Of a stretch of 64,000 nucleotides of DNA, positions 24,151 through 60,480 are shown piece after piece. The notes beneath the pieces are model-generated. The model was not told the origin of the DNA. It saw only the letters and a list, made by a program, of their open reading frames with translations, and ran no database searches. The position numbers and the translations under genes are program-made. Where the stretch lies: NCBI RefSeq assembly GCF_050003625.1, contig NC_134398.1:18426997-18490996 (forward strand), given 5' to 3'. How positions within the stretch are numbered: the stretch's first letter is position 1; each line of letters begins with the position of its first letter. The DNA is from Haematobia irritans (Eukaryota > Arthropoda > Insecta > Diptera > Muscidae).

Positions 24151-25402
24151 ATGTTGACTTTAAAACTTTTTGCTATAGGAATCTTGGTAACATTAGTGGG
24201 CCTATGCTCCTCTGAGAATATAGAAGGATCAAAGGAGCAAATTATTAATCAACCAGGTAGGAATATTTGCAAATAATTATAAATAATGGATCTTAAAAAT
24301 AAAAATCCTCTTTCCAGATTTCGTAGAACCGGCCGAGCCAAGTGTCCAGCCTACAGAAATACCTAAAAGGGAAGGAAAACGCCGTAAGGATCATTCTCCT
24401 AATGTCCATATCGAGAATATTTATATTCCCCATCAAATACAAAAGGGAGAGGAAACAATTGAAGGTTATCCAATGTATCCCATTTACACACAACCCTTGA
24501 CTTCGCCCTATGATAGGAGGCCTTCGAAATCTAAACATAAAACAAAACCTAAGCCATCACCCACAGAAACCCAAATACCAGAGGAACAAAATCAAGAACC
24601 AACATTAAATACTCAACAGAAACCTTTGCTGATTTATAGACCCGATGACGATGATGACGAAGAGGAATCCCCAAATGATTTCATAAAAATTCCCACTTCA
24701 GTATTATCATCCATACAACCTCAGTTATCTGTAAATCCCATTGCCAATCCCGGTTATCCATATTTCATTATCATAAATGCTCCCAATCAAAGAAAATCGT
24801 CACAATCCATGAAGAAACCAAAACCCAAACCATCCAAAGAAGAACATGAAGAAGATGTAGGAGAAGCTGATCATTCGGATTTCATAAAACCCCTGAGCTC
24901 TCAAATTCCCTTAGAGGTTAAGAAACCTTTGACAAAATCATCAGTAGCTTTAAGGAAATCTCATCCAAGGTTAAAGAGTTCAAATTTTAATGCCAACACC
25001 GGATTTTCTATTGCGAAATATCTGATGGGTTATCCTTCCTCCTATGGCAATCAGGGCTGGGAAAGATCCATACAAAATAAAAATGATTTTCCAGTTGTAG
25101 CCGAAGATGATACAGAAGATGATGAAGAGGCAAATGATATGGAAGATGAAGCATTGGAAACCGAGAAGAGTAATACTCCCAGTGATAATGTAGACAAAGT
25201 TGAAGAAGCAAACACTGAGGAATCTGAGAATACAAATGCTTTCCAACAATTTCAACAGTTGATCAATGGAAGAGGTAATAAATTACCAGTGGATTATATA
25301 TTTGGCTCCCAAAGGCCCAAATATAAAATTGATGATCGTATTGCTTTGGTCTTCCTTAGACATTCCAAACGGGGGCGACAATTGTTATTGGAGGAAATTT
25401 AA
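24151..25402 (+). CDS. secreted acidic, proline-rich protein (two exons, unknown family)
   Basis: Exon 1 (24151-24256) and exon 2 (24318-25402) join across a 61-bp GT-AG intron to encode 396 residues. The intron is needed: exon 1 ends one base into a codon, and only splicing links the signal peptide in frame to the long downstream frame. Residues 1-21 form a signal peptide (MLTLKLFAIGILVTLVGLCS), so the product should enter the secretory pathway. The mature chain is low in complexity, with Lys/Pro stretches (KPKPSP, KKPKPKPSK), acidic runs (PDDDDDEEE, EDDTEDDEEAND) and a repeated DFIK motif. It has one conserved-looking hydrophobic patch, GYPYFIIINAP, and a basic C-terminus. There are no cysteines after the signal peptide in exon 1 and none visible in exon 2. 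Context of TATA box, short leader and AATAAA supports a real gene. Function is unknown; a cuticle, salivary or reproductive secretion is possible but unproven. Confidence 0.82.
24257..24317 (+). other. intron of the host gene
   Basis: This is a 61-bp intron with donor GTAGGA and acceptor TTTCCAG, AT-rich in between. The length is typical of short dipteran introns. It interrupts codon 36 after its first base (phase 1). Confidence 0.8.
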
Positions 25403-26044: not shown

Positions 26045-29000
26045 TTAATAAAAAATATTTTATAGAAATAAAAATTTGAGAAAATGTTCTATAAAAATAA
26101 AACGTTGACAACATTTTCTATAGAAATAAAATTTTAACAATCATTTCTAAAGCTATAAATAAATGAAAAAATTTTCTATAAAAATAAAATGTTGACAAAA
26201 ATTTCTATACGAGTAGAAATAAAATGTTGACAAAATTTTCTATAGAAATAAAAGTTTGACAAAGTTTTTTATGGAAATAAAATTTTGACAAAATGTTCTA
26301 TAAAAATAAAATTTTGACAAAATGTTCTATAGCAATAAACAAATGCCAAAATGTTCTATAGAAATAAAATTTGGACAAAATTTTCTATAGAAATAAAATT
26401 TGGACACAATTTTCTATAGAAATAAAATTTTGACAAAATTTTTTATAAAAATAAAATTTTGACAAAATTTGTTATAGAAATAACATTTTGAAAAAAATCT
26501 ATAGAAATAAAATTTTTATAACAATAAGATATAGACAAAATTTTCTATAGAAATAAAATTTAGACAAAATTTTCTATAGAAATAAAAATTGGACAAAATT
26601 TTCTATAAAAATAAAATTTTGACAAATTTTTTTTGGAAATAAAATTATGAAAAAATGTTCTATAAAAATAAAATTTTGACATAAAAATTTTGACAAAATT
26701 TTCTGTAGAAATAAAATTTGGACACAATTTTCTATAGAAATAAAATTTTGACAAAATTTTCTATAGCAGTAAAATTTGGACAAAATTTTCTAAAGAATTA
26801 AAATGTAGATTTTTTTTTTATAAAAATCAAAATTGGGCAACATTTTCTATAGAAATAAAATTTAGATAAAATTTTCTATAGAGTTAATATTTGGACACAA
26901 TTTTCTATAAAAAATTATCTTTAAAAATAAAATTTTTGCAAAATTTTCTATATAAATAAAATATTGACAAAATTTTCTGTAGAAATAAAATTTTGACAAA
27001 ACTTTCTATAAAAAAATAACATTTTAACAAAATTTTCTATAGAAATAAAATGTTGACAAAATTTTCTATAGAAATAAAATTTTGACAAAATTTTCTTTAG
27101 AAATAAAATTTTAACAAAATTTTCTATAGAAATAAAATTCTTACAAAATTTTCTATAGAAATAAAATTTTTACAAAATTTTGGCAAAATTTTCTATAGAC
27201 ATAAATAAATAACAAAATTTCCTATAGAAAGAAAATTTTGACAATAGATATACTCGTAGAAATAATAGAAATAAAATTTTTACAAAATTGTTTATAGAAA
27301 TAAAATTTTGACAAAATTTTTTTAAATAAAATTTTAACAAAATTTTCTATAGAAATAAAATTTTGACAAAATTTTCTATAGAAATAAATTTTTGACAAAA
27401 TTTTCTATAGAAAGAAAAGTTTGACAAAATTTTCTATAGACGTAAATAAATAACAAAATTTCCTATAGAAAGAAAATTTTGACAAAATTTTGTATAAAAA
27501 ATAAAATTTTAACAAAATTTTCTATAAAATTAAATTTTAACAAAATTTTCTATAGAAATAAAATGTTGACAAAATTTTCTATAGAAATAAAACTTTGACA
27601 AAATTTTCTTTAAAAATAAAATTTTAACAAAATTTTCTACAGAAATAAAATTTTGACAAAATTTTCTATAGAAATAAAATTTTTACAAAATTTTCTATAG
27701 ACATAAATAAATAACAAAATTTCCTATAGAAAGAAAATTTTGACAATAGATATACTCGTAGAAATAATAGAAATAAAATTTTTACAAAATTGTTTATATA
27801 AATAAAATTTTGACTAAATTTTTTTTAAATAAAATTTTAACAAAATTTTCTATAGAAATAAAATTTTGACAAAATTTTCTTTAAAAATAAAATTTTAACA
27901 AAATTTTCTGTAGAAATAAAAATTTGACAAAATTTTCTATAGAAATAAAATTTTAACAAAATTTTCTATAGAAATAATATTTTGGCAAAATTTTCTATAG
28001 AAACAAAATTTTGGCATAGACATAAATAAATAACAAAATTTTCTATAGAAACAAAATTTTGGAAAAATGTTCTATAGACATAAATCAATAACAAAATTTT
28101 CTATAGAAATAAAATTTTGACAAAATTTTCTTTAAAATTAAAATTTTAACAAAATTTTTAGAAATAAAATTTTAACAAGATTTTCTATAGAAATAAAATG
28201 TTGACAACATTTTCTAAAGAAATAAAATTTGAAAAAATTTTCTTTAAAAATAAAATTTTAGCAAAATTTTCTATAAAAATAAAATGTTGACAAAATTTTC
28301 CATAGAAATAAAATTTTGACAAAATTTTCTATAAAAAATAAAATTTTAACAAAATTTTCTATAGAAATAAAATTATGACAAAATTTTGTTTAAAAATAAA
28401 ATTTTAACAAAATTTTCTATAGAAATAAAAATTTGACAAAATTTTCATTAGAAATAAAATTTTAACAAAATTTTCTATAGAAATAAAATTTTGGCAAAAT
28501 TTTCTATAGAAACAAAATTTTGGCATAGACATAAATAAATAACAAAATTTTCTATAGAAATAAAATTTTGACAAAATTTTCTATAGAAATAAAATTTTAA
28601 CAAGATTTTCTATAGAAATAAAATTTTTACGCAATTTCTATAGAAATAAAATTTTTTACAAAATTTTCTTTAAAAATAAAATTTTAGCATAATTTTCTAT
28701 AAAAATAAAATGTTGCCAAAATTTTCTATAGAAATAAAATTTTGACAAAATTTTCTATAAAAAATAAAATTTTAACAAAATTTTCTATAGAAATAAAAAT
28801 TGGACAAAATTTTCTATAGAAATAAAATTTTAACAAAATTTTCTTTAGAAATAAAATTTTGGCAAAATTTTCTATAGAAACAAAATTTTGGCATAGACAT
28901 AAATAAATAACAAAATAGATATACTCGTAGAAATAATAGAAATAAAATTGTTACTAAATTTTCTATAGAAATAAAATTTGGCAATTTTTTTTTTTTTAAT

Positions 29001-29095
29001 AAAATTTTGACAAAATTTTCTATAGAAATAAAATTTGACAAAATTTTCTATAGAAATAAAATTTTAATAAAATTTTCTGTAGTATTAAATGTGGA
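26045..29095 (-). repeat. 29-bp AT-rich array, GACAAAA orientation, 3 kb
   Basis: About one hundred units of the same repeat as at 6265 but on the opposite strand: AAAATTTTCTATAGAAATAA followed by AATTTTGAC. Irregular units mark internal block duplications: GATATACTCGTAGAAATAAT occurs near 27247, 27749 and 28917, with a 502-bp offset for the first pair, and TAGACATAAATAAATAACAA recurs several times. Phe/Lys/Asn-rich ORFs here are repeat artefacts. Confidence 0.95.
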
Positions 29096-30523
29096 AAAAT
29101 TTTTATTTTTGTTGTTTTTTTTTCGTTTTTTCTGAAAAACTACTTTAAAATTATTGCTTGAAAATCCTAAGGGTACAGTAGATGGGTACAGTAGGAATCA
29201 TGATCGGTCCGGAAATTAATCAACGGCCATGTTATCCACTATTAAGCCATGACTTTTAACGCTTCTATATTAAAGAGTTTTCTCAAAAGTTTATTAAAAA
29301 GTATACCTCAACGTCCTTTGGAAATTGTAGTAGTTGGGTACAGTAGGAATCTTAATTCCTTATATGGATTCATTAAAACAAAGTCTGTATGAGTGAATTT
29401 TATGTTAGCCCAGAATTTCAAGTTCTTTAAAGTTTTTTCTTTCCTTACTTTTATAAGAAATTAAGGCTTTACGCGTTATAGACGAAAGAATCTTGTGAAA
29501 ACTTTTTTTATTTCATATACAAGCTGCTAGCTTTTCTGTCTGATGATGATGATGGTTTTAACAAAAATTATTATGTCTGGTGGTTTCCCAGACATGCATT
29601 AACATGTGCGGTTATACTAAAAAACAAAAAAAGGAGAAATGATCCAGAAAACAAAACTGAAAGGAATGAAATTCATGGAAACAGAAGCTCTAGTGGGAAT
29701 CACAGAATTTGTTTTTTTTAAGAAAAAAATCTTTTGGCAGTTCCGTTTTTATTTTTATTTTATTTTTTTCAGTTTAATATGAAAGAATGTAATATCTTTC
29801 AAAGTTCTGGGCAAAAAAGGAAACCAGAGAGAAAACAAGTTGATAAAAAGCTTTTAAAAAGTCTCATTCCATTTTTTTGGTATAGGTTTTCGTCCCTTGT
29901 GCCCGTGTACCGTCTATATTCATCTGTAGCATATACAGCATTTTTGTATAAAATTTTTGTTAATTTTTTTCGTTTGAATTTCTTTCCTTTTTGGGTTCAT
30001 TTTATATTATATCTCAACCTCAAATTTCATAAATGTCTTCTTTTTGTGTGGGCTCTCTCTCTTGTTCGTTATGTATCATAAGCCATGTATATGGTATCAT
30101 ACAAACACCACAACGAGATAACCATTTAACTTTGCATCATATCATAAACCTCCTTGGAGAATATGTATTTTCCACTTTCCTAACAGACACCATAACCATG
30201 TCTACATTAGAGAGTATTCCTTGTGTAAAACTTAGAACATATTTTCGGACATATTTGGTAAAATTCACTTATGGCGGTGTCAAACATCCACGTCACACCC
30301 ATATTGGAAAACTTTTCTGAACATAGAATATTGTTCTCATTTTAAGGTAGCTTTAGTATATTCACTTTTAGAAAGTAAATTATGGCAAAGGTCAGACGAT
30401 CGCCATATCCTTAAAAGTAGCCTATGTTGGAGAATAATAAATAAAAACACCATCCTACAATCATGATATCCGATTGTACAATCATCACAGACGAGTCCAC
30501 AATCATAAGAACTGACTATATAT
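29096..30523. other. low-repeat non-coding DNA
   Basis: This contains scattered GGGTACAGTAGGAATC phrases (about 29180, 29340) and two small ORFs (29734-30081, 30033-30320) without start context, codon bias or recognisable domains. No gene is called. Confidence 0.4.
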
Positions 30524-30964: not shown

Positions 30965-32145
30965 TGTAGAATTTTTTTTTTTCAAAATTTTATTTTGTAG
31001 AAAATTTTGTCTAAATTTTACTGCAATAGAAAATTTTGTCAAGATTTTATTTCTATAGAATATTTGGTAACATTTGATTTCTACAGAGAATTTTGTCAAA
31101 TTTTTTGTTATAGAAAATGTTGTCAAAGTTTCAGTTTTACAGAAAATTTTGTCAACATTTTATTAATATAAAAAATGTTGTCCAAATTTTATCAATAGGA
31201 TATTTTGTCATGGTTTCATTTTAAAAAAGAATTTTGTCAAAATTATATGTCCATAGAAAATTTTGTCAAAATTGTATTTCTATAGAAAATTTTGTTAAAA
31301 TTTTATTTCTATAGAAAATTTTCTAAAAATTGTATTTCTATAGTAAATTTTGTCAAAATTTTATTTCTATAGAAAATTTTGTCAAACTTTTATTTCTATA
31401 CAAAATTTTGTCAAAATTTTATTTCTATGGAAAACTTTGTCAAAATTTTATTTCTATAGAAAATTTTGTCAAAATTTAATTTCCCTAGAAAAATTTGTTA
31501 AAAATATATTTCTATAGAAAATGTTTCAAAATTTAGTTTCCCTAGAACATTTTGTTAAAAATATATTTCTATAAAAATTTTTTTTTTATTTTTATGGAAA
31601 AGTTTGTCAAAATTTTATTTCTGTGGAGAATTTTGTCAAAATTTTATTTTTATGGAAAATTTTGTCAAAATTTTGTTAAAATTTTGTTTCTATACAAAAT
31701 TTGGTAAAAATTTTGTTTCTATACAAAATTTGGTAAAAATTTTATTTCTATAGAAAATTTGGTAAAAATTTTATTTCTATAGAAAATTTTGTCAAAATTT
31801 TATTTGTGTAGAAAATTTTGTCAAAAATTTATTTCTATAGAAAATTTTGTCAAAAATTTATTTCTATAGAAAATTTCGTCAAAATTTTATTTCTATAGAA
31901 AATTTCGTCAAAATTTTATTTCTATAGAAAATTTTGCCAAAATTTTATTTCTGTAGAAAATTTTGTCAAAAGTTTGTTTCTATATAAAATTTAGTCAAAA
32001 TTTTATTTCTATAGAAAATTTTGCAAAATTTTATTTCTATAGAAAATTTTGTCAAAATTTTGTTTCTATATAAAATTTGGTCAAAATTTTATTTCTATAG
32101 AAAATTTTGCAAAATTTTTTTTCTGTAGAAAATTTTGTCAATATA
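30965..32145 (+). repeat. 29-bp AT-rich array, GTCAAAA orientation, 1.2 kb
   Basis: About forty units with TTTTATTTCTATAGAAAA. It abuts the CTCACG island on the left. On the right it runs directly into the recurrent flank described at 32155-32235. Confidence 0.93.
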
Positions 32146-34337: not shown

Positions 34338-35270
34338 AAGGGTGATTTGTTAAGAGCTTGATAACTTTTTTTTTTTTTTAAACGCATAAAATTTGCAAAA
34401 TCTCATCGGTTCTTTATTTGAAACGTTAGATTGGTCCATGACATTTACTTTTTGAAGATAATTTCATTTAAATGTTGACCGCGGCTGCGTCTTAGGTGGT
34501 CCATTCGGAATGTCCAATTTTGGGCAACTTTTTCGAGCATCTCGGCCGGAATAGCCCGAATTTCTTCGGAAATGTTGTCTTCCAAAGCTGGAATAGTTGC
34601 TGGCTTATTTCTGTAGACTTTAGACTTGACGTAGCCCCACAAAAAATAGTCTAAAGGCGTCAAATCGCATGATCTTGGTGGCCAACTTACCGGTCCATTT
34701 CTTGAGATGAATTGTTCTCCGAAGTTTTCCCTCAAAATGGCCATAGAATCGCGAGCTGTGTGGCATGTAGCGCCATCTTGTTGAAACCACATGTCAACCA
34801 AGTTCAGTTCTTCCATTTTTGGCAACAAAAAGTTTGTTAGCATCGAACGATAGCGATCGCCATTCACCGTAACGTTGCGTCCAACAGCATCTTTGAAAAA
34901 ATACGGTCCAATGATTCCACCAGCGTACAAACCACACCAAACAGTGCATTTTTCGGGATGCATGGGCAGTTCTTGAACGGCTTCTGGTTGCTCTTCACTC
35001 CAAATGCGGCAATTTTGCTTATTTACGTAGCCATTCAACCAGAAATGAGCCTCATCGCTGAACAAAATTTGTCGATAAAAAAGCGGATTTTCTGCCAACT
35101 TTTCTAGGGCCCATTCACTGAAAATTCGACGTTGTGGCAGATCGTAAGTCTATTCATGATGAAATGTCAAAGCATACTGAGCATCTTTCTCTTTGACACC
35201 ATGTCTGAAATCCCACGTGATCTGTCAAATACTAATGCATGAAAATCCTAACCTCAAAAGAATCACCCTT
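34338..35270 (-). mobile_element. Tc1/mariner DD41D transposon, internally deleted
   Basis: This 933-bp element has ends AAGGGTGATT on both sides (10 bp perfect) and TA duplications at 34336-34337 and 35271-35272. It is inserted in the 29-bp array, and the array reads on across it. The transposase DNA-binding half is missing, so this is a deletion derivative that depends on a full-length copy elsewhere. Confidence 0.92.
34445..35194 (-). pseudogene. DD41D (rosa-like) transposase, N-terminus deleted
   Basis: The open part (34445-35098) encodes the catalytic domain of 217 residues. It shows ILFSDEAHFW for the first Asp, WFQQDGATCHTA for the second and SCDLTPLDYFLW for the third. There are 41 residues between the second and third, so DD41D, the spacing of the rosa lineage first known from a tephritid fly. 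The same frame continues upstream to about 35194 (KEKDAQYALTFHHE) but is cut by TAG at 35147-35149, probably from a CAG codon. The helix-turn-helix half is absent, and there is no ATG at the start of the open part. Confidence 0.9.
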
Positions 35271-38200
35271 TATAAGATATTTTGTAAACATTTCATATCT
35301 ATAGAAAATTGCCAAAATTGTATTTCAATAGAAAATTTTGTCAAAATTTTATTTCTATAGAAAATTTTGTCACAATTATATTTCTATAAAAAATTTAGTC
35401 AACATTTTTTTGGAATAGAATATTTTGTCAAAATTTTATTTCTATAGAAAATGTTGTCCAAATATTATTTCTATAGAAAATTTTATCAAAATTTTATTTC
35501 TACAGAAAATTTTGTCAAAATAGTATTTGTGGAGAAGATTTTGTCTAAATATTATTTCTATAGAAAAATTTGCAAAAATTTTATTTCTATAGAAAATTTT
35601 GTAAAAAGTTTTATTTCAATAGAAAATTTGTCTAAATATTATTTCTATAGAAAATTTTGTAAACATTTTATTTCTATAGAAAATTTTGTCAAAATTTTAT
35701 TTCTTAAGGAAATTTTGTAAAAATTTTATTTCTATAGAAAATTTTGTCAAAATTTTATTTCCATGGAAAATTTTGTCCAAATATTATTTCTATAGAAAAT
35801 ATTGTAAAAATTTTATTTCTATAGAAAGCTTTGTTAAAATTGTATTTCTATAGAAAATTTTGTCAAAATTTTATTTGTATAGAAGATTTTGTCAAAATTT
35901 TATTTTTATAGAAAATGTTGTTAAAATTTTATTTCTATCGGAAATTTTATCAAAATTTTATTTCTATAGAAAATTTTGTCAAAGTTTTATTTCTATAGAA
36001 AATTTTGTCAAAATTGTATTTCTATAGACAATTTTGTCAAAATTGCATTTCTATAGACAATTTTGTCAAAATTGTATTTCTATAGAAAACTTTGTCAAAA
36101 TTTTATTTCTATAGAAGATTTTGTCAAACTTTTATTTCTATAAAAAATTTTGTAAATTTCTATAGAATGATTCTATAGAAGATTTTGTCAAAATTGTATT
36201 TCTATAGAAAATTTTGTCAACATTTTATTGCTATATAAAATTTTGTCCAAATATTATTTCTATATAACATTTTGTCAAAATTTTATTTCTATAGAAAATT
36301 TTGTCAAAAGTTTATTTCTATAGGAAATTTTGTAAAAATTTTATTTCAATAGAAAATTTTGTCAAAATTTTATTTCTATAGGAAATTTTGTACAAATTTT
36401 TTTTTCTAGAGAAAATTTTGTCCAAATATTATTTCTATAGAAAATTTTGTCAAAATTGTATTTGTAGAGAAGATTTTATCCAAATATTATTTCTATAGAA
36501 AATTTTGTCAAAATTTTATTTCTATCGAAAATGTTGTCAAAATTGTATTTGTAGAGAAGATTTTGTCCAAATATTATTTCAATAGAAAATTTTGTCAAAA
36601 TTTTATTTCTATCGAAAAATTTTCTCAAAATTTTATTTCTATAGAAAATTTTGTCAAGATTTTATTTCCATCGAAAAATAATGTCAAAATTTTTTTGGAA
36701 TAGAATATTTTGTCAAAACTTTTTTTCTATAGAAAATTTTGAGAAAATTTTTCGTTGGAAATAAAATTTCTATCGAAAAAACGTTTCAAAATTTTATTTC
36801 TAAGCAATACTTTTCATAGTTTCAGTTATACAAAAAATACAATAAGACGGTCAATGATAATCAATCAGAAATAAAAATTTTATTTCTATAGAAAAAATTT
36901 TCAATATTTGATTTCTATAGAAGATTTTGTCACAATTGTATTTCTATACAAAATTGTGTCAAAATTTTATTTCTATAGAAAATTTTGTTAAAAAAGTTTC
37001 TTTTTATAGAAAATGTTGTCAACATTTTATTTCTGTAGAAGATTTTGTCAAAATTTTATTTCTGTAGGAAATTTTGTCAACATTTTATTTCTATAGGAAA
37101 TTTTTTAAAAAATTTTTTCTATAGAAAATTTTGTCAAAATTTAATTTTGTGTAAATCAGTAACTAATCAAACTCGAGGTCATTTCTTTCTTGTTTTTATA
37201 GTAACATAAAATAAAGAAAACAAAATTTTATTTCTATAGAAAATTTTGTTAAACTTTTATGTCTATAGAAAATTTTGTAAACATTTTATTTCTATATAAA
37301 ATGTCAAAATTTTTATTCCCTAGAAAATTATGTCAAAGTTGTGTTTCTATAGAAAATTTTGTCAAAATTGTATTTCTATAGAAAATTTTGTCAACATTTT
37401 ATTTTTATAGAAAATTTTGTGAAAAATTTATTTCTATCGGAAATTTTATCGAAATTTTATTTCTACAGGAAATTTTGTAAAAATTTTATTTCTATATAAA
37501 ATTTTATAAAAATTTTATTTCTGTAGAAAATTTTGTTTGAATATTATTTCTATAGAAAATTTTGTAAAAATTGTATTTCTATAGAAAATTTATTTGTATA
37601 GAAAGTTTTGTGAAGATTTTATTTCTATAGAAAATTTTGTTAAGATTTTACTTCTATAGAAAATTTCGTCAAGATTTTTTTTCTATAGAAAATTTTGTCA
37701 AAATTGTATTTCTATAGAAAATTTTGCCAAAATTTTATTTGTATGGAAGATTTTGTCAAAATTTTATTTGTAAAGAAAATTTTGTCAAAGTTGTATTTCT
37801 ATAGAAAATTTTGCCAAAATTTTATTTCTGTAGAAAATGTTGTCACAGTATTATTTCTATAGAAAATTTTGTCAAAATTGTATTTCTATAGAAAATTTTG
37901 TCAAGATTTTATTTGTATAGAAGATTTTGTCAAAATTTTATTTTTATAGAAAATTTTGTCAAAATTTTATTTCTATCCGAAATTTTATCAAAATTTGATT
38001 TCTATAGGAAATTTTGTAAAGATTTTATTTCTATAGAAAATTTTTGTCAATGTTTTTTTTTTTTCTATCGAAAATTTTGTCAAAGTTGAAAATTTTGTCC
38101 AAATATTATTTCTATAGAAAATTTTGTAAAAATTGTATTTCTATAGAAAATTTTGTCAACATTTTAGTTGTATAGGAGATTTTGTCATAATTCTATTTCT

Positions 38201-38997
38201 ATAGAAAATTTTGTCAAAATTTTATTTCTATAGGAAATTTTGTAAAAATGTTATTTCTATAGAAGATTTTGTTATAATTTTATTTCTATAGAAAATTTTG
38301 TAAAATTTTTATTTCTATAGGAAATTTTGTAAAAATTTTATTTCTATAGAAGATTTTGTCATAATTTTATTTCAATAGAAAATTTTGTCAAAATTTTATT
38401 TCTATAGGAAATTTTGTGAAAATTTTATTTCTGTAGCAAATGTTGTCCAAATATTATTTGTATAGAAAATTTTGTCAAAATTGTATTTCTATAGAAAATT
38501 TTGTCAAGATTTTATTTGTATAGAAGATTTTGTCAAAATTTTATTTTTATAGAAAATTTTGTCAAAATTTTATTTCTATCGGAAATTTTATCAAAATTTT
38601 AGTTTTATAGGAAATTTTGTAAAAACTTTATTTCTATAGAATATTTTGTCAATGTTGTATTTTTATAGAAAATTTTGTCCAAATATTATTTCTAAAGAAA
38701 ATTTTGTAAAAATCGTATTTCTAGATTTTATTCAAGATTTTATTTCTATAGAAAATGTTGCCAAAATTTTATTTCTATTGAAAATTTTGTCAAAATTTGA
38801 TTTCTATAGAAAATTTTGTCAAGATTTTTTTTCTATAGAAAATTTTGTCAAAATTTTATTTCCATAGAAAATTCTTGTCAAAATTTTTTTTCTATAGAAA
38901 ATTTTGTCAAAGTTTTATTTCCATAGAAAATTTGGCAAAATATTAGTTATATAGAAAATTTTGTAAATTATTTCTTGTCATTATTTCTCTCAGTATA

Positions 38998-41408: not shown

Positions 41409-41786
41409 AAAATAAACCCAGCCATGTGAATTCAAATCGATGATTTGACAGTGGCATAGGAAAAGAGATATGTTTGTTTCGAATTTATTTCGGCATAAGC
41501 CGGCTATCAATGTAAAACCTTTTTTCGGAGGGTTCAAGTGTGGTTTTTGTTGGGTTTAATAAACTGCCTGAATTTATTCTGATAATTGGTTGATAGTTTT
41601 GCTGCAAGTAGAGGATGCTGATGAGGAATGTGGTAATTCCGAAACGTGCGTCCATCCAACCATCTTGCAGTCTATAGGGCTTTGCCCAAATAAATTTGAC
41701 AAACATTCTTTTCCTCTGTTGGTTAAGCTACTCTTGTAGTTTAGTCAATGTATGGTTTTAAGCTGAAATAAAAAACAACAACAATA
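41409..41786 (+). mobile_element. hammerhead-ribozyme retroelement-like sequence, copy 1
   Basis: This ~378-bp sequence sits in a 29-bp array and has two diverged relatives at 59312-59690 and 61570-61950, both on the minus strand. All three start near AATAAACCCAGCC, contain CCTTTTTTCGGAAGG-like and TTATTCTGATAATTGGTTGA phrases, and end GGTTTTAAGCTGA followed by an A-rich CAACAACAA tail. The tail suggests spread through RNA. No protein is encoded. A hammerhead motif lies at 41602-41670. Such ribozymes are known in Penelope-like elements and in the small non-autonomous retrozymes; this family most resembles one of those by composition, but its autonomous partner is not in the window. Confidence 0.8.
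41602..41670 (+). ncRNA. type I hammerhead ribozyme, intact core
   Basis: All invariant parts are present in order. Stem I outer helix pairs 41602-41608 (CTGCAAG) with 41664-41670 (CTTGCAG). After an internal loop, the inner helix pairs 41613-41617 (GGATG) with 41653-41657 (CATCC). The core CTGATGA is 41618-41624. Stem II pairs 41625-41629 (GGAAT) with 41636-41640 (ATTCC) over a six-base loop. The core GAAA is 41641-41644. Stem III is three pairs (A41644-T41651, C41645-G41650, G41646-C41649) with a two-base loop. The predicted cleavage site is after C41652 (UH with H = C). The very short stem III is typical of retroelement hammerheads, which may act as dimers. Confidence 0.85.
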
Positions 41787-42630
41787 AAATTTTGTCAAAA
41801 TTATCTATAGAAATAAACTTTTAACAAATTTTTTTATAGAAATAAAATTTTGATCAAATTTGCTATGGATACAAAATTTTCATTGAAAAAACTTTTGCTA
41901 AAATTCTCTACAGAAATAAAATGTTGATAAAACTTTGTATAGAAATAATATGTTGACAAAATTTTCTATAGAAATCCAATTATGGCAAAATTTTGTATAG
42001 AATAAAATGTTTAACAACAATTAATAAGGAAACCAAATTTTGACAAAAGTTTCTATAGAAATAAAATTTTGACAAAATTTTTTATAGAAATAAAATTTTG
42101 ACAAAATTTTCTATATACGTAAAATTTTCACAAAACTTTCTACAGAAATAAACTTTTAAAAAGAATTTCTATAGAACGAAAATTTTGACAAAATTTTCCA
42201 TAGAAATAAAATTTTAAAAGAATTTACTATTTATATAAAATTTTTTCAAATTTTTCTATAGCAATAAAATTCTGACAAATTTTTTATTGAAATAACATTT
42301 TGACAAAATTTTTATAAAAATAACATTTTGACAAAATTTGCTATAGAAATGAAATTTTGACAACATTTTCTATAGAAATCAAATATTGACAACATTTTCT
42401 ATACAAAAATAATTTTGTCCAAATTTAGACAATATGGAGTGTATAGAAATAAATTTTGACAAAATTTTCTATAGAAATAAAATTTTGACAAAATTTTCTA
42501 TAGAAATAAAATTTTGACAAAATTTTCTATAGAAATAAATTTTTTACAAAATTTGCTATAAAAATGAAATTTTGATAAAAATAAAATATTGACAACATTT
42601 TCTATAGAAATATCTGATCCTTTTCAAAAA
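41787..42630 (-). repeat. 29-bp AT-rich array, GACAAAA orientation
   Basis: About 28 units continuing the array interrupted by the hammerhead element. It is more degenerate on the left and near-consensus at 42440-42540. Confidence 0.9.
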
Positions 42631-43012: not shown

Positions 43013-44151
43013 AGGAAAGTCTAAAGTCGGGCGGGGCCGACTATATTATACCCTGCACCACTTAGTAGATCTAAATTTTCGATACCATATCACATTCGTC
43101 AAACGTGTTGGGGGCTATATATAAAGGTTTGTACCAAATACATAAATTTAAATATCACTCGATCTGGACAGAATTTGATAGCCTTCTACAAAATCTATAG
43201 ACTCAAAATTTGTGTCGGCTAATGCACTAGGGTGGAACACAATGTTAGTACAAAATAAAAATATGGGAAACATTTAAATCTGAAGCAAAAGTTTATTTAT
43301 GATTTATCGCTCGATATATACGTATTAGAAGTTTAGGAAAATTAGAGTCATTTTTACAACTTTTCGACTAAGCAGTGGCGATTTGAAAAGGAAAATGTTG
43401 GTATTTTGACCATTTTTGTCGAAATCCGAAAAACATATATATGGGAGCTATATCTAAATCTGAACCGATGCCAACCAAATTTGGCACGCATAGCTACAAT
43501 GCTAATCCTACTCCCTGTGCAAAATTTCAACTAAATCGGAGTTAAAAATTGGCATCTGTGGTCATATGAGTGTAAATCGGGCGAAAGCTATATTTGGGAA
43601 ATATATCCAAATCTGAACCGATTTCAACCAAATTTGGCACGCATAGCTATAATGCTAATCCTACTCCCTGTGCAAAATTTCAACTAAATAGGAGCAAAAA
43701 ATTTTCCTCTGTGGGCAATTGAGTGTAAATCGGGCGAAAGCTATATATGGGAGCTATATCTAAATCTGAACCGATTTGGCTGATATTTTGCAAGTTTTTC
43801 GAGACCTATAAAATATTCGGATGTACGGAATTTGAGGCAGATCGGTTGATATACACGCCAATTATGACCAAATCGGTGAAAAATATATATGGCAGCTATA
43901 TCTAAATCTGAACCGATTTTTTCCAAAATCAATAGGGACTAAAACTGCGAGCTGTACTTTGCACACAAAAATACATCAACAGACAGACAGACGGACAGAC
44001 AGACAGACAGACATCGCTAAATCGACTCAGAATTTAATTCTAAGCCGATCCGTATACTAAAAGGTTAGTCTATGATTACTCCTTCTTGGCGTTACATACA
44101 AATGCACAAAGTTATTATACCCCGTACCACAGTAGTGGTCAAGGGTATAAC
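43013..44151 (+). mobile_element. mini-me/DINE-like element B1
   Basis: It starts AAACAAGTAAGGAAAGTCTA with a GC-rich hairpin (GTCGGGCGGGGCCGAC, 43026-43041). It carries ~120-165-bp tandem units (GGGAGCTATATCTAAATCTG phrase) and then the (GTCY)n proto-microsatellite as CAGACAGACGGACAGACAGA (43982 on) with the GACTCAGAATTTAATT core. Subterminal direct repeats ATTATACCCTGCACCAC (43045-43061) and ATTATACCCCGTACCAC (44114-44130) bracket the body. Related to the A family, but a distinct subfamily. It encodes no protein. Confidence 0.8.
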
Positions 44152-45070
44152 TATAGAGAAATAAAATTTTGACAAAATTTTCTATAGAAATAAAATTTTC
44201 ACAAAAGTTTCTATAGAAATAAAATTTTGACAAAGTTTTCTATAGAAATAACATTTTTACAAAATTTTCTATAGAAATAAAATTTTGACAAAATTTTCTA
44301 TAGAAATAAAATTTTGCCAAAATTTTCTATATAAATAAAATTTTGACAAAATTTTCTATAGAAATAAAATTTTGACAAAATTTTAAATAGAAATAAAATG
44401 TAGAAAAAATTTTCTATAGAAATAAAATTTTGACAAAATTTCCTATAGAAATAAAATTTTGATAAAATTTTCTATAGAAATAAAATTTTGACAAAATTTC
44501 CTATAGAAATAAATATTTTACAAAACTTCCTATAGAAATAAAATTTTGACAAAATTTTCTATAGAAATAAAATTTTGACAAAATTGTCTATAGAAATAAA
44601 ATTTTGACAAAATTTTCTATAGAAAAACAATTTTTACCAAATTTTCTACACAAATAAAATTTTGACAAAATTTTCTATAGAAATAAAATTTTAACAAAAT
44701 TTTCTATAGAAATAAAATTTTGACAAAATTTTAAATAGAAATAAAATTTTGACAAAATTTTCTATAGAAATAAAATTTTGATAAAATTTTCTATAGAAAT
44801 AAAATTTCGACAAAATTTCCTATAGAAATAACATTTTGACAAAATTTTCTATAGAAATAAAGTTTTGAAAAAATTTTCTATAGAAATAAAATTTTGACAA
44901 AATTGTCTATAGAAATAAATAGTTTACAAAATTTACAAAATACAAAAAAAAAAATTACCAAATTTTCTATACAAATAAAATTTTGACAAAATTTTCTATA
45001 GAAATAAAATTTTGAAAAAAATTTCTATAGAAATAAAATTTTGAAAAAAATTTCTATAGAAATAAAATTT
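44152..45070 (-). repeat. 29-bp AT-rich array, GACAAAA orientation, near consensus
   Basis: About 31 units, among the most regular in the window, between element B1 and the 106-bp inverted repeat. Confidence 0.93.
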
Positions 45071-45113
45071 TTCTACGTTTGTTGTTTTTGTTTTTCGACC
45101 TTTTTGTTTATTA

Positions 45114-45406
45114 CCTTATGTTATCTTTTTGTAAATTCAAGCTCGAGGTCAAAGTTTTATTTTTATTTTTTTGTTTTATTTTTTCATAATTCGATATTTC
45201 GATCTCCTTCGGAAATCATCAACGGGAATAAAATAAATAAATAAAGTTACAAGCTATGTCACTGCTGTTGTCCTCCCATGTCTGTTGTTGCTACCACACC
45301 ATGATTTCCGAAGGAGATCGAAATATCGAATTATGAAAAAATAAAACAAAAAAATAAAAATAAAACTTTGACCTCGAGCTTGAATTTACAAAAAGATAAC
45401 ATAAGG
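45114..45406. repeat. perfect 106-bp inverted repeat with 81-bp spacer
   Basis: Arms 45114-45219 and 45301-45406 are exact reverse complements over all 106 bases by direct comparison, including the poly-T/poly-A tracts. The spacer (45220-45300) has an AATAAAATAAATAAATAAA stretch. A transcript would fold into a long perfect duplex. It lies inside a 29-bp array. It could be a fold-back duplication of a retroelement end. Confidence 0.93.
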
Positions 45407-46285
45407 AAATAAAATTTTTCCAAAATATTCTATAAAAAAAATTGACAACATTTTCTATAGAAATAAAATTTTGTCAAAATCTTCTGTAGAAATAAAATGT
45501 AAAAAAAAATATTATTGAAATTAAATTTTGACAAAATTTTCTACAGAAATAAAATTTTGACAAACTTTTCTATAGAAATTAAATTTTGATAAAATTTTAT
45601 AACTTAATAATATTTTGACAAAATTTTCTATAGAAGTAAAATATAAAAAAAAATACAGGAATAAAATTCCTAAATTTTCTAAAAAAACTATAGAGAAAAA
45701 AAAAATTTGACAAAATTTTCTATCGCGATACAATTTTGACTAAATTTTCGATAGAAATAAAATTTTAACAAAATTTTCTATAGAAATAAAATTTTAACAA
45801 AATTTTCGATAGAAATACAATTTTCACAAAAGTTTTTTATAGAAATAAAATTTTGACAAAATTTTATATAGAAATAAAATTTTGACAAAATTTTCTATAG
45901 AAATAAAATTTTGACAAAATTTTCTATAGAAATAATGTTTTGAAAAAATTTTCTATAGAAAAAAAATTTTGACAAAATTTTCTATAGAAAAAAATTTTGA
46001 CAAAATTTTCTATAGAAAAAAAATTTTGACAAAATTTTCTATAGAAAAAAAATTTTGACAAAATTTTCTATAGAAAAAAATTTTTGGCAAAATTTTCTAT
46101 AGAAATAAAATTTTGACAAAATTTTCTATAGAAAAAAAATTTTTCCAAAATATTCTATAAAAAAAATTTGACAACATTTTCTATTGAAATAAAATTTTGT
46201 CAAAATCTTCTATAGAAATAAAATGTAACAAAAAATATTATTGAAATTAAGTTTTGACAAAATTTTCTATAGAAACTAAATTTTG
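45407..46285 (-). repeat. 29-bp AT-rich array, GACAAAA orientation
   Basis: About 30 units, with a regular run of a GAAAAAAAATTTTGAC variant at 45950-46080 that points to local unit expansion. Confidence 0.92.
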
Positions 46286-48744: not shown

Positions 48745-50290
48745 AGAAACAAGTATATACGGCCATAATTTCGGCCAAGCCGAATCTTATGTACCCTCCA
48801 CCATGGATTGCGTAGAAACTTCTACGAAAGACTGTCATCCACAATCGAATTACTTGGGTTGTGATGTCTTAAAACTTCTTAACATCGTTTTCTAAATTGT
48901 GAATTAGTCTATACGTGGTATATGTATAGATACGTTTACAAATAATTACGAATCGACATGGACTTTTGCACGGTACGTAGAGAGCCAGAATTGAAACATG
49001 GGAGTCGTTTATATGGGGGCTATATACAATTATGAACTTGATATGGACCAATTTTTGTGTGATTGGGGATCTATTTATCTGAGAGCTATATATAAATATA
49101 GACCGATATGGACCTAGTTAGGCATGGTTGTTAAGGCCATATACTAGCACAATGTACCAAATTTCAACAGACTCGGATGAAATTTGCTCCTCCAAGAGGC
49201 TCCAAAACTAAATCTCGGGATCGGGATCGAAAGGCACCCGGGGTCAAATCTGGCGATCGATTTATATGGGAGCTATCAGAGAATGAAGCCGACCCATTTT
49301 TGTCAGCGGCGGCTGACACTAATTTTTTGCATCCGGCGGCGGCGGCTTGACGGCTAAGCCGATATAAATTGGTGGATTCGGCGGCGGACAATTATCCATT
49401 ATAAAATCAATTTGAAATTATCCGAATGCTAATGAGATTAGTTGTACAACCAATCTTACAATCACATTTACGTTTCATTAAAATTTTCTGAACTAAATTT
49501 GTGGAAAATTGTTATAGCAGCTTGATACTGACGGATTTTGGATGGAAAGTCAAATATTTTGACAAAAAATATAACATTTATTAATAATTTTTTCCGATTT
49601 AAATTAATATTTTTGATTAATTGGCGGCTAAGTTTGAGTTGGGATGAGTCGACATATTCGGCGGCGGCTTCGGCTGGCAAAAATTGGTCGGCGGCGGCTA
49701 AAAACGGCGGCGCGACTCGGCGGCTTCATTCTCTGGGAGCTATATATAATTATGGACTGATATGAACCAATTCCTGTATGGTTATTGGATACCATATACT
49801 AACATCACGTACCAAATTTCAACCGAATCGGATAAATTTTGCTCTTCCAAGGGGCTCCGGAGGTCAAATCTGGGGATCGGTTTATATGGGGGCTATATAT
49901 AATTATGGACCGATTTCCACCAATTTTTGCATTGGTGTTTGAGGCCATATATTAACATCATGTACCAAATTTCAGCCGGATCGGATGAAATTTGCTTCTC
50001 TTAGAGGGTCCGCAAGCCAAATCGGGGGATCGGTTTATATGGGGGCTATATATAATTATGAACCGATGTGGACCAATTTTTGCATGGTTTTTAAAGACCA
50101 TATAGCAACACCATGTACCAAATTTCAGTCAGATCGGATGAAATTTGCTTCTCTTAGAGGCTTCGCAAGCCAAATCGGGGGATCGGTTTATATGGGGGCT
50201 ATATATAATTATTGACCGATGTGGATCAATTTTTGCATGGTTGTTAGAGATCATATGCTGACACTATGTACCAAATTTCAACCGGAACCA
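48745..50290 (+). mobile_element. mini-me-like element A3
   Basis: It starts ACAAGTATATACGGCCATAA and a hairpin arm TTCGGCCAAGCCGAA (48770-48784). It continues with ~150-bp units carrying TATGGGGGCTATATATAATT and is interrupted by the hAT element at 49277-49735. The right end is unclear, as it passes into the related unit type C at about 50291. Confidence 0.7.
49277..49735. mobile_element. 459-bp hAT MITE, CGG-rich termini
   Basis: The perfect 15-bp terminal inverted repeat CAGAGAATGAAGCCG is present at both ends, with an exact 8-bp target duplication GGAGCTAT (49269-49276, 49736-49743). The subterminal 60-100 bp on each side is rich in CGGCGG, standing out sharply from the AT-rich surroundings, while the middle is AT-rich. 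It encodes no transposase. Confidence 0.93.
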
Positions 50291-51345
50291 AATTTCAGGT
50301 CAAGTTCGAAGATGGGCTATATCGGTCCAAGTTTTAATATAGTCCCCATATAAACCGACCTCCCGCTTTTAATTCTTTGGCTTCTAGAAACTGTATTTAC
50401 TATCCGATTTGCCTGAAATTGGAAATCTAGAGGTATTTTGGGACCGTAAAGAGGTGCGTCGAAAATGCTTCGTATCGGTCCATATTTTGCTATAGCCCCC
50501 ATATAGACCGATCTCCTGATTTTGCTTCTTGGGAGCTAGAAACCGTATTTTCTATCCGATTTGCCTGAAATTGAAACTCTAGAGGTATTTTAAGACCACA
50601 AAGAGGTGTGTCGAAAATGGGGTGTATCGGTCCATGTTTTGGTATAGCCTCCATATAGACCGATTTCCCGATTTTATTTCTTGAGCTTCTAGAAGCCTTA
50701 TTTACTGTCCCATTTGCCTGAAATTTGAAATCTAGAAGTATTTTATGACCACACATAGGTGTGCCGAAATTGAGGTATATCGGTCAATTTTTTGGTATAA
50801 CCCGATTTTACTTCCTGGGCGTCTAGAGACTATATTTTCTAGCCGATTTGCTTGAAATTGAAAAGCTAGAGGTATTTTAACATCACAAATAGGTGAGTCG
50901 CAAATGGTGCCTATCGGTCCATATTTTGGTATAGCCTGCATATAGAGCGAACTCCCGATTTTACTTTTTGGTCTTCTATAAACTGTATTTACTATCCGAT
51001 TTGCCTGAAATTGGAAATCTAGTGGTATTTTGAGACCATAAAGAAGTGTGTCGAAAATGGTCCGTATCGGTCCAGGTTTTGGTATAGCCCCCATATAGAC
51101 CGATATATTTTCTAGCCGATTTGTTTGAAATTGAAAATCTAGAGGTATTTTAACATCACAAAAAATAGGTGTGTCGCAAATGGTCCGTATAGGTCCATAT
51201 TTTGGTATAGCCCCCATATAGACCGATCTCCCGATTTTGCTTCTTGGGCGTCTAGAAACTGTATTTTCTATCCGATTTGCCTGAAATTGAAAATCTAGAG
51301 GTATTTTAGGACCATAAAGGCCCTAAAGGATTCGGCCTGGCCGAA
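50291..51345 (-). mobile_element. mini-me-like element C, ~150-bp tandem units
   Basis: Seven tandem units carry TATCCGATTTGCCTGAAATT or a close variant (near 50401, 50551, 50706, 50841, 50993, 51113 and 51271), with spacing 120-160 bp, alternating with TATAGCCCCCATATAGACCG. It ends in the hairpin TTCGGCCTGGCCGAA (51331-51345). No (GTCY)n tract is seen. It could be the distal half of A3 fused to another copy. Confidence 0.65.
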
Positions 51346-54529: not shown

Positions 54530-56249
54530 TTTAAATTTGACAAAATTTTTTATAGAAATAAAATTTTAATAATATTTTCTATAGAAATAAAATTTTGACA
54601 AAATTTTTTATAGAACTAAAATTTTGACAAAAATTTTCTATGGAAATAAAATTTTGGAAAAATTTTCTATAGAAATAAAATTTTGAAAAAATTTTCTATA
54701 GAAATAAAATTTTGACAAAATTTTCTATAGAAATAAAATTTTGACAAAATTTTCTATAGAAATAAAATTTTTAGAAAATGTTCTATAGAAATACAATTTT
54801 GAAAAAATTTTCTGTAGAAATATAATTTTGGTAAAACTTTCTAGAGAAATAAAATTTTGGCAAAATTTCCTATATAAAAAACATTTTGATAACATTTTCT
54901 ATAGAAATAACATTTTGACAAAATTTTCTATAGAAATATAATTTTGATAAAACTTTCTAGAGAAATAAAATTTTGGCAAAAATTCCTATAGAATCAACAT
55001 TTTGATAACATTTTGACAAAATTTTTTATGGAAATAAAATTTTGATAAAATTTTCTATAGAAATAAAATTTTGGCAAAATTTTCTATAGAAACAACATTT
55101 TGACAAAATTTTGTAAAGAAACAAATTTTTGACAAAATTTTCTATAGAAATAAAATTTTGACAAAATTTTCTATAAAAATAAAATTTTGACAAAATTTTC
55201 TATGGAAAAAAAATTTTGACAAAATTTTCTATGGAAATAAAATTTTGATAAAATTTTCTATAGAAATAAAATTTTGGCAAAATTTTCTATGGAAATAAAA
55301 TTTTGACAAAATTTTATATGGCAATAAAATTTTGACAAAATTTTTTATGGAAATAAAATTTTGATAAAATTTTCTATAGAAATAAAATTTTGGCAAAATT
55401 TTCTATAGAAATCAAATAATGAGAAAATATTTCTATAGAAATACAATTTTGACCAAATTTTCTATAGAAATAAAATTTTGACAAAATTTTCTATAGAAAT
55501 AAAATTTTGACAAAATTTTCTATAGAAATAAAATTTTGACAAATTTTTCTATCGAAATAAAATTTTGACAAAATTTTCTAAATATAAATAAAATTTTGGG
55601 AAAATTTTCTATAGAAATAAAATTTTGACAAAATTATCTATAGAAATAAAATTTGGACAAAATTTTGTATAGAAATAAAATTTTCTATAGAAATAACATT
55701 TTGACAAAATTTTCTCTAGAAATTAAATTTTGACAAAATTTTCTATAGAAACAACATTTTGACAAAATTTTTCTATAGAAATAACATTCTTACAAAATTT
55801 TCTATAGAAATAAAGTTTTGACAAAATTTTCTACAGAAGTAAAATTTTAACAAAATGTTCTATAGAAATAAAATTTTGACAAAATTTTCTATAGAAATAA
55901 AATATTGACAAAAAATTTCTATAGAAATAAAATTTTGACAAAATTTTCTATAGAAATAAAATTTTGACAAAACTTTCTATAGAAATAAAATTTTTAACAA
56001 ATTTTCTATAGAAATAAAGTTTCTAAAAAAATTTCTGTGGAAAATAAAATTTTGTCAAAATTTTCTATAGAAAATAAAATTTTGTCAAAATTTTCTATAG
56101 AAATAAAATTTTGATAAAATTTTTTATTGAAATAAATTATTGAAAAATTTAATAAAATTTCTAAAAAATTTTCTATAACAATTTTTTTATTAAATTTTCT
56201 ATAGACATAAAATTTAGATAAAATTTTCTATAAAAAAAAATTGATAAAA
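54530..56249 (-). repeat. 29-bp AT-rich array, GACAAAA orientation
   Basis: About 59 units, many near consensus. It is cut at 56249 by a Helitron and resumes at 58084. Confidence 0.95.
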
Positions 56250-58083: not shown

Positions 58084-59311
58084 TATTCTATACAATTTTG
58101 ACAAAATTTTCTATAGAAATAAAATTTTTAAACGATTTTTTATAGACATAAAATTTTTAATTTTTATGGAAATAAAATGTTGACAAAACTTTCTATAGAA
58201 ATAACATTTTGACAAAATTTTCTATAGAAATTACAATTTTAACAAAATTTTCTATAGAAATTACAATTTTAACAAAATTTTCTATAGAAATAAAAATTCT
58301 AAAAAATTTTCTATAGAAAATAAAATTTTGATAAAATTTTCTATGGAAATAAATTTTTTTAAAAATTTTTAAAAAATTTTTTATAGAAATAAAATTTTGA
58401 TAAAATATTCTATATAAATAAAATTTTTAAAACATTTTCTATGGAAATAAAATTTTTTTATAGAACTAAAATTTTGACAAAATTTTCTATAGAAATAAAA
58501 CTTTGACAAAATTTTCTATAAAAATAAAATTTTGACAAAATTTTCTATAAAAATAACATTTTAACAAAATTTTCTATGGAAATAAATTTTTTATAGAAAT
58601 AAAATTTTTAACAATTTTTTTATAGAAATACAGTTTCTAAAAAAACATTATAGAAAATAAAACTTTGTCAAAAATTTCTATAGAAAAAAAATTAATAAAA
58701 TTTTCTATAGAAAATAAAATTTTGTCAAAATTTTCTATAGAAATAAAATTTTGATAAAATTTTCTATAGGAATAAAATTTCTAAAAAATTGCCTATAAAA
58801 AATTTTTTTGGTTAAATTTTCTATAGAAATAAAATTTTGGCAAAATTTTCTAAAAAAATTTTTGACAAAATTTTCTATAGAAATAAAATTTTCTATAGAA
58901 ATAAAATTTTCTGTAAAAATAAAATTTTGATAAAATTTTCTATAGAAATAAAATTTTTAAAAAGTTTTCTATAGAAATAAAATTTCTAAAAAATTTCCTA
59001 TAAAAAAATTTTTGGTTAAATTTTCTATAGAAATAACATTTTGACAAAATTTTCTATAGAAATAAAATTTTGCCAAAATTTTCTATAGAAATAAAATTTT
59101 GAAAAAATTTTCTATAAAAATAAAATTTTGACAAAATTTTCTATAAAAATAAAATTTTGACAACATTTTCTATAAAAATAAAATTTTAACAACATTTTCT
59201 ATAGAAGAAAATTTTCGATAGAAACAACATTTTGTATGGAAATAACATTTTGACAAAATTTTCCATAGAAATCAAATTTTGACAACATTTTCTATAGAAA
59301 TAAAATTTTTA
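58084..59311 (-). repeat. 29-bp AT-rich array, GACAAAA orientation
   Basis: The continuation of the array across the Helitron, about 42 units, with a TTTTTAAAAA-type variant common at 58300-58450 and 58900-59000. Confidence 0.93.
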
Positions 59312-59690
59312 TTGTTGTTTTTGATCTCAGCTTAAAGCCATGCATTGACTAAACTACAAGTGTAGCTTACCAACAGAGGAAAAGTATGCTTGTCAAATTT
59401 ATTTGGGCAAAGCCCTATAGACTGCAAGATGGTTGGATGTACAGCTGTTTCGGAATTACCACATTCCTCATCAGCATCCTCTACTTGCAGCAAAACTATC
59501 AACCAATTATCAGAATAAATTCGGGTAATTCACTCAACCCAAAGTGAACTGCACTTGAACCTTCCGAAAAAAGGTTTGATAGTCGGCTACTGCCTAAACA
59601 AATTTGCAAGCATATCTCTTTTCCTTTGCCAAACTCAAATCATCGATTTGAATGTAGTTGGCTGGGTGTGTTTTTGAGCGTGCTTCCTCT
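59312..59690 (-). mobile_element. hammerhead-ribozyme retroelement-like sequence, copy 2
   Basis: Minus-strand relative of the element at 41409. On the minus strand it begins near CACGCTCAAAAACACACCC, shares AATCGATGATTTGA and GGAAAAGAGATATG with copy 1, and ends GGCTTTAAGCTGA followed by an A/CAA tail (plus strand ATTGTTGTTTTTGA at 59311-59324). It is inserted in a 29-bp array like copy 1. Divergence outside the ribozyme is clear (a shortened CGGCATAAGCC segment, several indels), whereas the 69-nt ribozyme is almost unchanged. Confidence 0.8.
59422..59490 (-). ncRNA. type I hammerhead ribozyme, intact core, copy 2
   Basis: The same architecture and length as 41602-41670. Minus-strand CTGCAAG (59484-59490), GGATG (59475-59479), CTGATGA (59468-59474), GGAAT/ATTCC (59463-59467, 59452-59456) and GAAA (59448-59451). 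Stem I is closed by CATCC (59435-59439) and CTTGCAG (59422-59428). Stem III reads ACA-GC-TGT, where copy 1 has ACG-TG-CGT, so the third pair changed from G-C to A-T with pairing kept. The residue before the cleavage point is A (59440), an allowed H. Confidence 0.85.
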
Positions 59691-60480
59691 ATAAAATTTT
59701 GACAAAATTTTCTATAGAAATAAAATTTTGATAACATTTTCTGTGAAAATAAATTTTTAAAAAATTTTTTATAGAAATAAAATTTTGACCAAATTTTCTA
59801 TAGAAAATAAAATTTTGACAAAATTTTCTATAGAAATAAACTTTTGATAAAATTTTCTATAGAAATAAAAGTTTTAAATTTTCTTTTTTTAAATTGTCTA
59901 TAGAAATAACATTTCTAAAAAGAAAAAATCTATAAAAAAAATTGATAAAATTTTCTATAGTAAAGAAAATATAGAAATAAAATTTTTAAAAAATTTTTTA
60001 TAGACATAAAATTTTTAAAAAATTTTCGATGGAAATAAAAGTTTTTATGGAAATAAAATGTTGATACAATTTTTATTGAAATAAATTTTTAAAAAAATTT
60101 CTATAGAAATAAAATTTCTAAAAAATTTTCTATAGAAATAAAATTTTGACAAAATTTTCTAGAGCAATAAAATTTTTAACAAATTTTCTATAGAAATAAA
60201 ATTTCTAAAAATTTTTCTATAGAAAATAAAATTCTGTCAAAAATTTCTATAGCAAAAAATTTTGATAAAATTTTCTATACAAAATATAATTTTGTAGAAA
60301 TTTTCTATAGAAACAAAATTGTGATAAAATTTTCTATAGAAATAAAATTTTTAAAACATTTTCTATGGAAATATAATTTTTAAAAAATTTTGTATAGAAC
60401 TAAAATTTTGACAAAATTTTCTATAGAAATAAAACTTTGACAAAATTCGTTAGAAATAAAATTTTGACAAAATAAGATTG
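59691..60480 (-). repeat. 29-bp AT-rich array, GACAAAA orientation
   Basis: About 27 degenerate units, ending at the CGAGTGG-AACC border. Confidence 0.92.

Follow-up and report, generated by a model that had tools for sequence, protein, structure and literature searches.

According to the passages of a review that concern them, the repeats of metazoan retrozymes show no conserved motif that would reveal the retrotransposon mobilising them (PMC7761336; see also PMC7229834), and Penelope-like elements and Terminons are named there as likely candidates on the basis of shared hammerheads and co-occurrence (PMC7761336). In the Penelope literature, as far as the parts cited here go, head-to-head inverted pLTRs are described, one of which carries a 31-bp tail, with target-site duplications (TSDs) of 8–10 bp, and so are insertions without a TSD (PMC3846280). 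The protein of a lizard Penelope element, studied in vitro, cuts and extends both strands and prefers AT-rich targets; copying begins at two internal sites, which delimit the tail (PMC11167929). For insects, there is a general mention of retrozyme-like repeats (PMC7229834), and Aedes aegypti, a dipteran, was earlier reported to have hammerheads in its dispersed repeats (PMC3088659). The initial annotation of the element described below knew of no account of it in muscid flies. This holds for the open-licence literature, in which searches that were partly poorly targeted found no description of the family in muscid or other higher flies (the words Penelope, SINE and ribozyme are absent from the main text of the Stomoxys genome paper, PMC7944917), but its novelty is narrowed by the Aedes repeats, hammerhead repeats as such being known from a dipteran.

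The window analysed here, a stretch of 64,000 nucleotides from Haematobia irritans, contains three copies of the element, all of them single rather than tandem. Copy 1 (41409–41787, + strand) is truncated at the 5' end and corresponds to about positions 19–391 of the unit, as aligned by BLAST to the real 433-bp unit of locus L034; it is inserted inside a 29-bp AT-rich tandem array. Copy 2 (59310–59690, − strand) starts with AGAGGAAGCACGC and ends with AAAAACAACAATA, which is the short 3' end of the element. It is flanked by the direct repeat AAAATTTTAT, at 59691–59700 (−) on its 5' side and at 59300–59309 (−) on its 3' side, which we read as a TSD; the repeats sit in an AT-rich array, where such matches arise also without duplication. 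Copy 3 is composed of a direct part (61570–61866, − strand, unit about 96–390) and an inverted, head-to-head 5' arm (61866–61941, + strand), whose outer end is internal, at about unit position 139. Only the first two copies had been recognised initially; both are real, and the list is completed by the third, degraded copy, with its hammerhead at 61753–61689 (−).

The hammerhead motif is real. In copy 1 all parts of a type I hammerhead are present (41604–41668, +): stem I has an outer part (GCAAG/CTTGC) and an inner part (GGATG/CATCC) separated by an internal loop (TAGA/AACCAT), the core is CTGATGA and GAAA, stem II is GGAAT/ATTCC with loop GTGGTA, and stem III is ACG/CGT with loop TG (class ACGUGCGU/C17). 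Position 17 is C17, and cleavage is predicted after 41652. The hammerhead of copy 2 (59424–59488, −; class ACAGCUGU/A17; predicted cleavage between 59440 and 59439) differs from it in five bases and is otherwise identical. The changes are confined to stem III, now ACA/TGT with loop GC, and the cleavage base: the third pair G-C became A-U, the loop UG became GC and C17 became A17, which remains in the cleavable class. Both copies thus have what defines a type I hammerhead, namely a CUGANGA and GAAA core, three stems, an open stem I and a cleavable H17, and self-cleavage is predicted from these parts. Loops are present on both sides of a putative loop I–loop II contact. In copy 3 (61689–61753, −) the motif has decayed: GAAA of the core is changed to GCAA, mismatches in stem I have cost it two pairs, and the hammerhead folded in isolation (segment 61684–61753) gives a z of 0.11. 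By eye, a frame of 20 codons, or of 18 if counted from the second ATG, runs from an ATG at the hammerhead core of copy 1 to a TAG (41615–41677, +); in the lizard Penelope element, the ORF likewise begins at the hammerhead (PMC11167929).

A full descriptor, comprising three stems and the UH site, matched the window twice, at copies 1 and 2, but had no match in 400 shuffles of the window, made with dinucleotides preserved and searched on both strands. This confirms the parts that had been seen at first inspection (the cores, a 5-bp stem II, a 3-bp stem III, the UH site and a two-part stem I). The core pattern alone was rejected as evidence, its 2 matches not differing significantly from the 1.65 expected by chance. 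The check proposed in the initial annotation, a search with the Rfam type I model (RF00163), gave for copy 1 a match at 41615–41655 that stays below the curated cut-off (16.1 bits against 34; E 0.1 for 73 bases), and for copy 2 no match; thus, Rfam speaks for the motif weakly. Across the whole window and copies 1 and 2, nothing in Rfam rose above the curated cut-off, and longer stretches gave no listed hammerhead match. The lack of such a match and the broken state of copy 3 would suit a hammerhead-like motif that is due to chance or is a fossil, and is inactive. The empty shuffles argue against this explanation, as does the conservation of the ribozyme elsewhere in the genome.

The 29-bp AT-rich unit (AGAAATAAAATTTTGACAAAATTTTCTAT) forms extensive arrays on both strands of the window (6279–12282, 26052–29103, 30977–32141, 35279–38964, 44157–46285, 54536–56242 and others), and copies 1 and 2 sit in such arrays in opposite relative orientation. 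Repeats with a period of ~153 bp occupy 3084–3893, 15686–16409, 43436–43777 and 49734–51319, and translated stretches similar to them recur in downstream loci. Transposase-like open frames occur at 253–1362, with a DDE_3 match just below the cut-off at 955–1359 (28.3 of 28.6 bits), and at 13467–14618, with helix-turn-helix matches at 13467–14189. A 234-aa open frame at 34448–35149 (−) is mariner-like by eye and has no Pfam match at E 0.001. A 371-aa frame at 24287–25402 has no Pfam match either; a search for homologues yielded only one, a Stomoxys calcitrans protein that is uncharacterised and 55% identical.

The copies in the window are pieces of a non-coding unit of 433–442 bp, and the length of ~378 bp first given to the element is therefore wrong. 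At L034 a linker lies between the CAACAATAA tail and the 5' end AGAGGAAGCACGC, which results in a 433-bp period, and at L052, a locus of the second subfamily, two complete hammerheads are spaced 442 bp apart. The L034 unit has a GC content of 0.386 (39%), and its longest ORF is 53 aa, in agreement with the initial annotation, which saw no ORF. Folded as a circle, the unit exceeds 60 shuffles in stability (z −4.9), with 62% paired versus 58% in the shuffles; for other retrozymes more than 70% paired is quoted, which is above the value of the fly unit.

In the host genome (1.17 Gb), a 26-mer located upstream of the ribozyme was found at 16,107 places with up to 2 mismatches (reversed control, 0), a pattern of 35 places covering the ribozyme's 3' half at 12,612 sites (control, 0) and a 29-mer of the linker at 3,917 places with up to 3 mismatches (control, 0). 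The element occurs in solitary form, as head-to-tail multimers and as head-to-head composites. Nothing of it was found in viral contigs and phages; one 20-mer match in a Prochlorococcus contig was taken as chance. The loci sampled for further analysis were the first 30 of the 16,107 places, which are exact matches close to one of the ends of C1, together with the window and the adjoining 200 kb; the sample is non-random.

Of the first 100 listed among the 12,612 sites, 93 have an intact GAA. Position 17 is occupied by C in 60, by A in 39 and by U in 1; G never occurs there, although the pattern left this position free. The combination of stem III and position 17 is ACGUGCGU/C at 47 of these sites and ACAGCUGU/A at 33. 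At 88 of them, the eight-base stem III segment is able to pair, at all four of its levels, with another copy of the segment. Most changes in stem III preserve pairing. Given these observations, an inactive motif of chance or fossil origin appears highly improbable. The variation in stem III consists mostly of two subfamilies plus scattered mutations.

We also examined covariation in 20 distinct hammerheads, 19 of them from the sampled loci and one from copy 3 of the window, whose row is three bases off frame. The score was 0.128, compared with 0.076 for shuffled and at most 0.034 for slid alignments, and exceeded all 500 shuffles; it should be noted that related sequences can pass these controls without structure. 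In the same set, 94.7% of pair cells are standard, and 16 cells are changed on both sides, seven of them at the third pair of stem III and nine at the two loop bases of this stem, whose pairing is possible only in a dimer. Pairs with a two-sided change (2) and further pair types (6) showed no excess over shuffles in the 20 hammerheads. The self-complementary eight-base segment suggests dimeric cleavage, as has been proposed for Aedes (PMC3088659). A strict hammerhead rule, applied to the 33 copies that were left of a sample of 43 after 10 incomplete ones had been dropped, was passed by 19 and failed by 14.

The arrangement of the copies was analyzed in two lists of 100 places each, one array being present in both. 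Same-strand neighbors within 1 kb are spaced 418–442 bp apart in 24 of 25 cases, and close opposite-strand neighbors are divergent in 17 cases and convergent in none. For most of the first 100 listed places, the list contains no other place within 1 kb. The outer 3' ends of the inserts (n = 48) comprise a short class at unit 378–399 (21 ends), a long class at 415–433 and up to 6 (15 ends) and 12 others, one of which is a locus edge; none lies at 400–414, and the two preferred sites are about 40 nt apart, in zones that were defined only after the ends had been seen. When two reference units were used, the numbers were 20 short, 15 long and 12 others of 47. L033, L034 and L037, which overlap L032 and L036, were excluded from these counts, and two pieces of L046 were joined by hand as one insert. 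Of 54 segments, six are longer than one unit and ten extend across the unit junction; the latter indicate that the template was circular or multimeric. By eye, the sampled loci showed no clear cluster of insert 5' ends at the cleavage site, such as uncircularised monomers would leave.

Ten composites with opposite arms were detected with two reference units and a looser search, and nine with one reference unit, the addition being copy 3 of the window. One short and one long end were present in 7 of the 10; two others had a long and an internal end, and one (copy 3 of the window) had a short and an internal end, so that none had two alike. Opposite-strand pieces that overlap downstream, at 64863–64985, were called composite by neither count. 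The largest composite among the listed linker places (G000:C1:36206599-36209345), of which the junction alone was read (L053), has five linker copies in one orientation followed by two head-to-head.

These arrangements bear on the possibility that the element is an ordinary SINE moved by a LINE, with tandems that are DNA duplications or multimeric transcripts and inversions that result from LINE twin priming. Twin priming predicts composites in which the outer end of one arm is internal, as is seen in 3 of 10; 5' truncation is common, and the only product of our GIY-YIG search was the host SLX1 gene, which is also compatible with this explanation. However, 7 of 10 composites end at both tail sites, one of each (again in zones set after the ends were seen), neighbor pairs are divergent rather than convergent (17 versus 0), and the same 418–442 bp spacing recurs at many places. 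We consider an ordinary SINE moved by a LINE quite unlikely. As to the tRNA-like 5' part of a tRNA-derived SINE, copies 1 and 2 had no Rfam tRNA match up to E 10, and ARAGORN found 0 genes in the window.

Target-site duplications were less informative. In a first test, direct repeats of at least 10 bp bordered 9 of 39 inserts, compared with 0.92 expected from mismatched flanks, with the 29-bp arrays uncontrolled. Insertion into these arrays without duplication produces such matches in 14–23% of trials and, since many inserts are located in the arrays, 9 of 39 overstates the duplications. Inside arrays, abutting repeats of at least 10 bp were found at 7 of 15 inserts, where 14% are expected for clean insertion and 38% if the array phase jumps. 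Outside arrays, they were found at 1 of 23 (composite L042, 10 bp), with 0.8% expected; at L026, also outside arrays, a 14-bp repeat lies slightly off the boundary. Composites in arrays have repeats of 12–14 bp in 4 of 6 cases, which are confounded by the array. Duplications therefore exist without being general in this sample, and alone they do not demonstrate that each composite is a single event.

A Pfam GIY-YIG model (PF01541) had one match in the whole genome, in the host SLX1 gene (SLX1_C by Pfam, adjoining Med31). Thus, no Penelope GIY-YIG endonuclease was detected genome-wide by this model, whose sensitivity for Penelope endonucleases was uncontrolled, and the 45 longest open frames that were listed for the sampled loci, inspected by eye, included no recognisable Penelope ORF. 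Another explanation is that the element is a non-autonomous Penelope derivative, a pLTR-like unit. The hammerhead would then be inherited baggage, and multimers would come from uncut tandem transcripts, with no circular RNA involved. The tail, the inversion and the tandem structure indeed resemble Penelope insertions, hammerhead mutants of the lizard Penelope element had no effect on insertion in vitro (PMC11167929), and in a tandem array at C1:3.805 Mb all three complete hammerheads have a broken first stem I pair. On the other hand, the fly hammerhead is of the canonical type I with a stem I internal loop and not of the minimal Penelope form (PMC7761336), and most of the first 100 listed sites have retained its core. 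We regard this origin as unlikely.

The explanation that we favor, if by a modest degree of confidence, is that the element represents a new fly family of metazoan non-LTR retrozyme that is integrated by a Penelope-type enzyme. It is suggested by the two end sites, the head-to-head arms (which in 7 of 10 composites have one short and one long end), the tandem form and the AT-rich surroundings. The proposal of the initial annotation, a non-coding retroelement with a type I hammerhead akin to retrozymes and Penelope-like elements, fits the genome-wide copies, their 3' ends and the composites. Several observations count against a retrozyme moved in this way: the GIY-YIG search gave only SLX1, an internal arm end is present in 3 of 10 composites, duplications are few outside arrays (1 of 23), 14 of 33 hammerheads fail the strict rule, and the 62% paired in the circular fold is below the value quoted for other retrozymes.

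For such a retrozyme, read-through transcription of tandem copies would generate multimeric RNA. The type I hammerhead would cut this RNA, to judge from its sequence probably poorly as a monomer, because stem III consists of three pairs and a two-base loop, and better as a dimer, because the eight-base segment of stem III is self-complementary. A host ligase would then circularise the monomers of 433–442 nt, a step that has been proposed for other animal retrozymes (PMC7229834), and by analogy with them the role of the ribozyme may be to make monomers for circularisation. A Penelope-type reverse transcriptase, presumably supplied in trans, would nick AT-rich DNA, and copying would start at one of two sites in the tail region, ~40 nt apart, from either target strand. 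Going round the template would yield tandem units, and initiation on both strands would yield head-to-head composites. Two elements of this integration model, the end sites and the head-to-head arms, are observed in the genome. It is also possible, although here we are more hesitant, that this animal retrozyme is integrated by a Penelope-type reverse transcriptase that initiates on both strands of the target and uses two sites of a circular RNA template, one for each strand, which would account for most composites having one tailed and one untailed arm. Because the lizard hammerhead mutants were still inserted (PMC11167929), the ribozyme may be dispensable for the insertion step.

Several described systems are close to the element. 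Like the interspersed repeats of Aedes aegypti (Perreault 2011, PMC3088659), it is dispersed in a dipteran genome and carries a hammerhead with a palindromic stem III capable of pairing in a dimer, a likeness by description and not by alignment. It also resembles the SINE-like SMalpha elements of Schistosoma, repeats of ~335 bp with a type I hammerhead (PMC8490949, PMC4918200), and the stem III of the Rfam type I consensus is nearly that of copy 1; the schistosome repeats, however, carry a tRNA part, whereas copies 1 and 2 match no tRNA family. The unit itself agrees with metazoan non-LTR retrozymes, which are described as tandem copies of a non-coding unit of a few hundred base pairs (~150–450 bp) with low GC (<50%) and a canonical type I hammerhead (PMC7229834): the fly unit has 433 bp and a GC of 0.386, and 24 of 25 same-strand pairs are spaced 418–442 bp apart. 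Duplications in these retrozymes, when present, are longer than 4 bp; in the fly, abutting direct repeats of at least 10 bp border 1 of 23 inserts outside arrays (0.8% expected) and 7 of 15 inside, where 14–38% would be expected without duplication. In contrast to the retrozymes as described in the parts of that paper cited here (PMC7229834), fly inserts have two preferred 3' termini and head-to-head composites, and most of the first 100 listed places are without a second one within 1 kb.

The element also resembles Penelope-like elements (PMC3846280, PMC11167929), with which it shares inverted head-to-head copies, an optional tail of 30–40 bp, AT-rich surroundings, tandem copies and a hammerhead. 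The Penelope mode of insertion, head-to-head copies with a tail on one arm, is mirrored by the 17 divergent and 0 convergent pairs and by the short and long ends of 7 in 10 composites. Unlike Penelope-like elements, which have an ORF with a telomerase-like reverse transcriptase and usually a GIY-YIG endonuclease, the fly unit has neither enzyme of its own (longest ORF, 53 aa), and its canonical hammerhead with a stem I internal loop differs from the minimal Penelope forms (PMC7761336). The architecture of the fly inserts, with two end sites, head-to-head arms and lengths exceeding one unit, supplies a kind of evidence on the mobilisation of animal retrozymes that had been lacking, and the thousands of copies in this fly allow the question to be tested.
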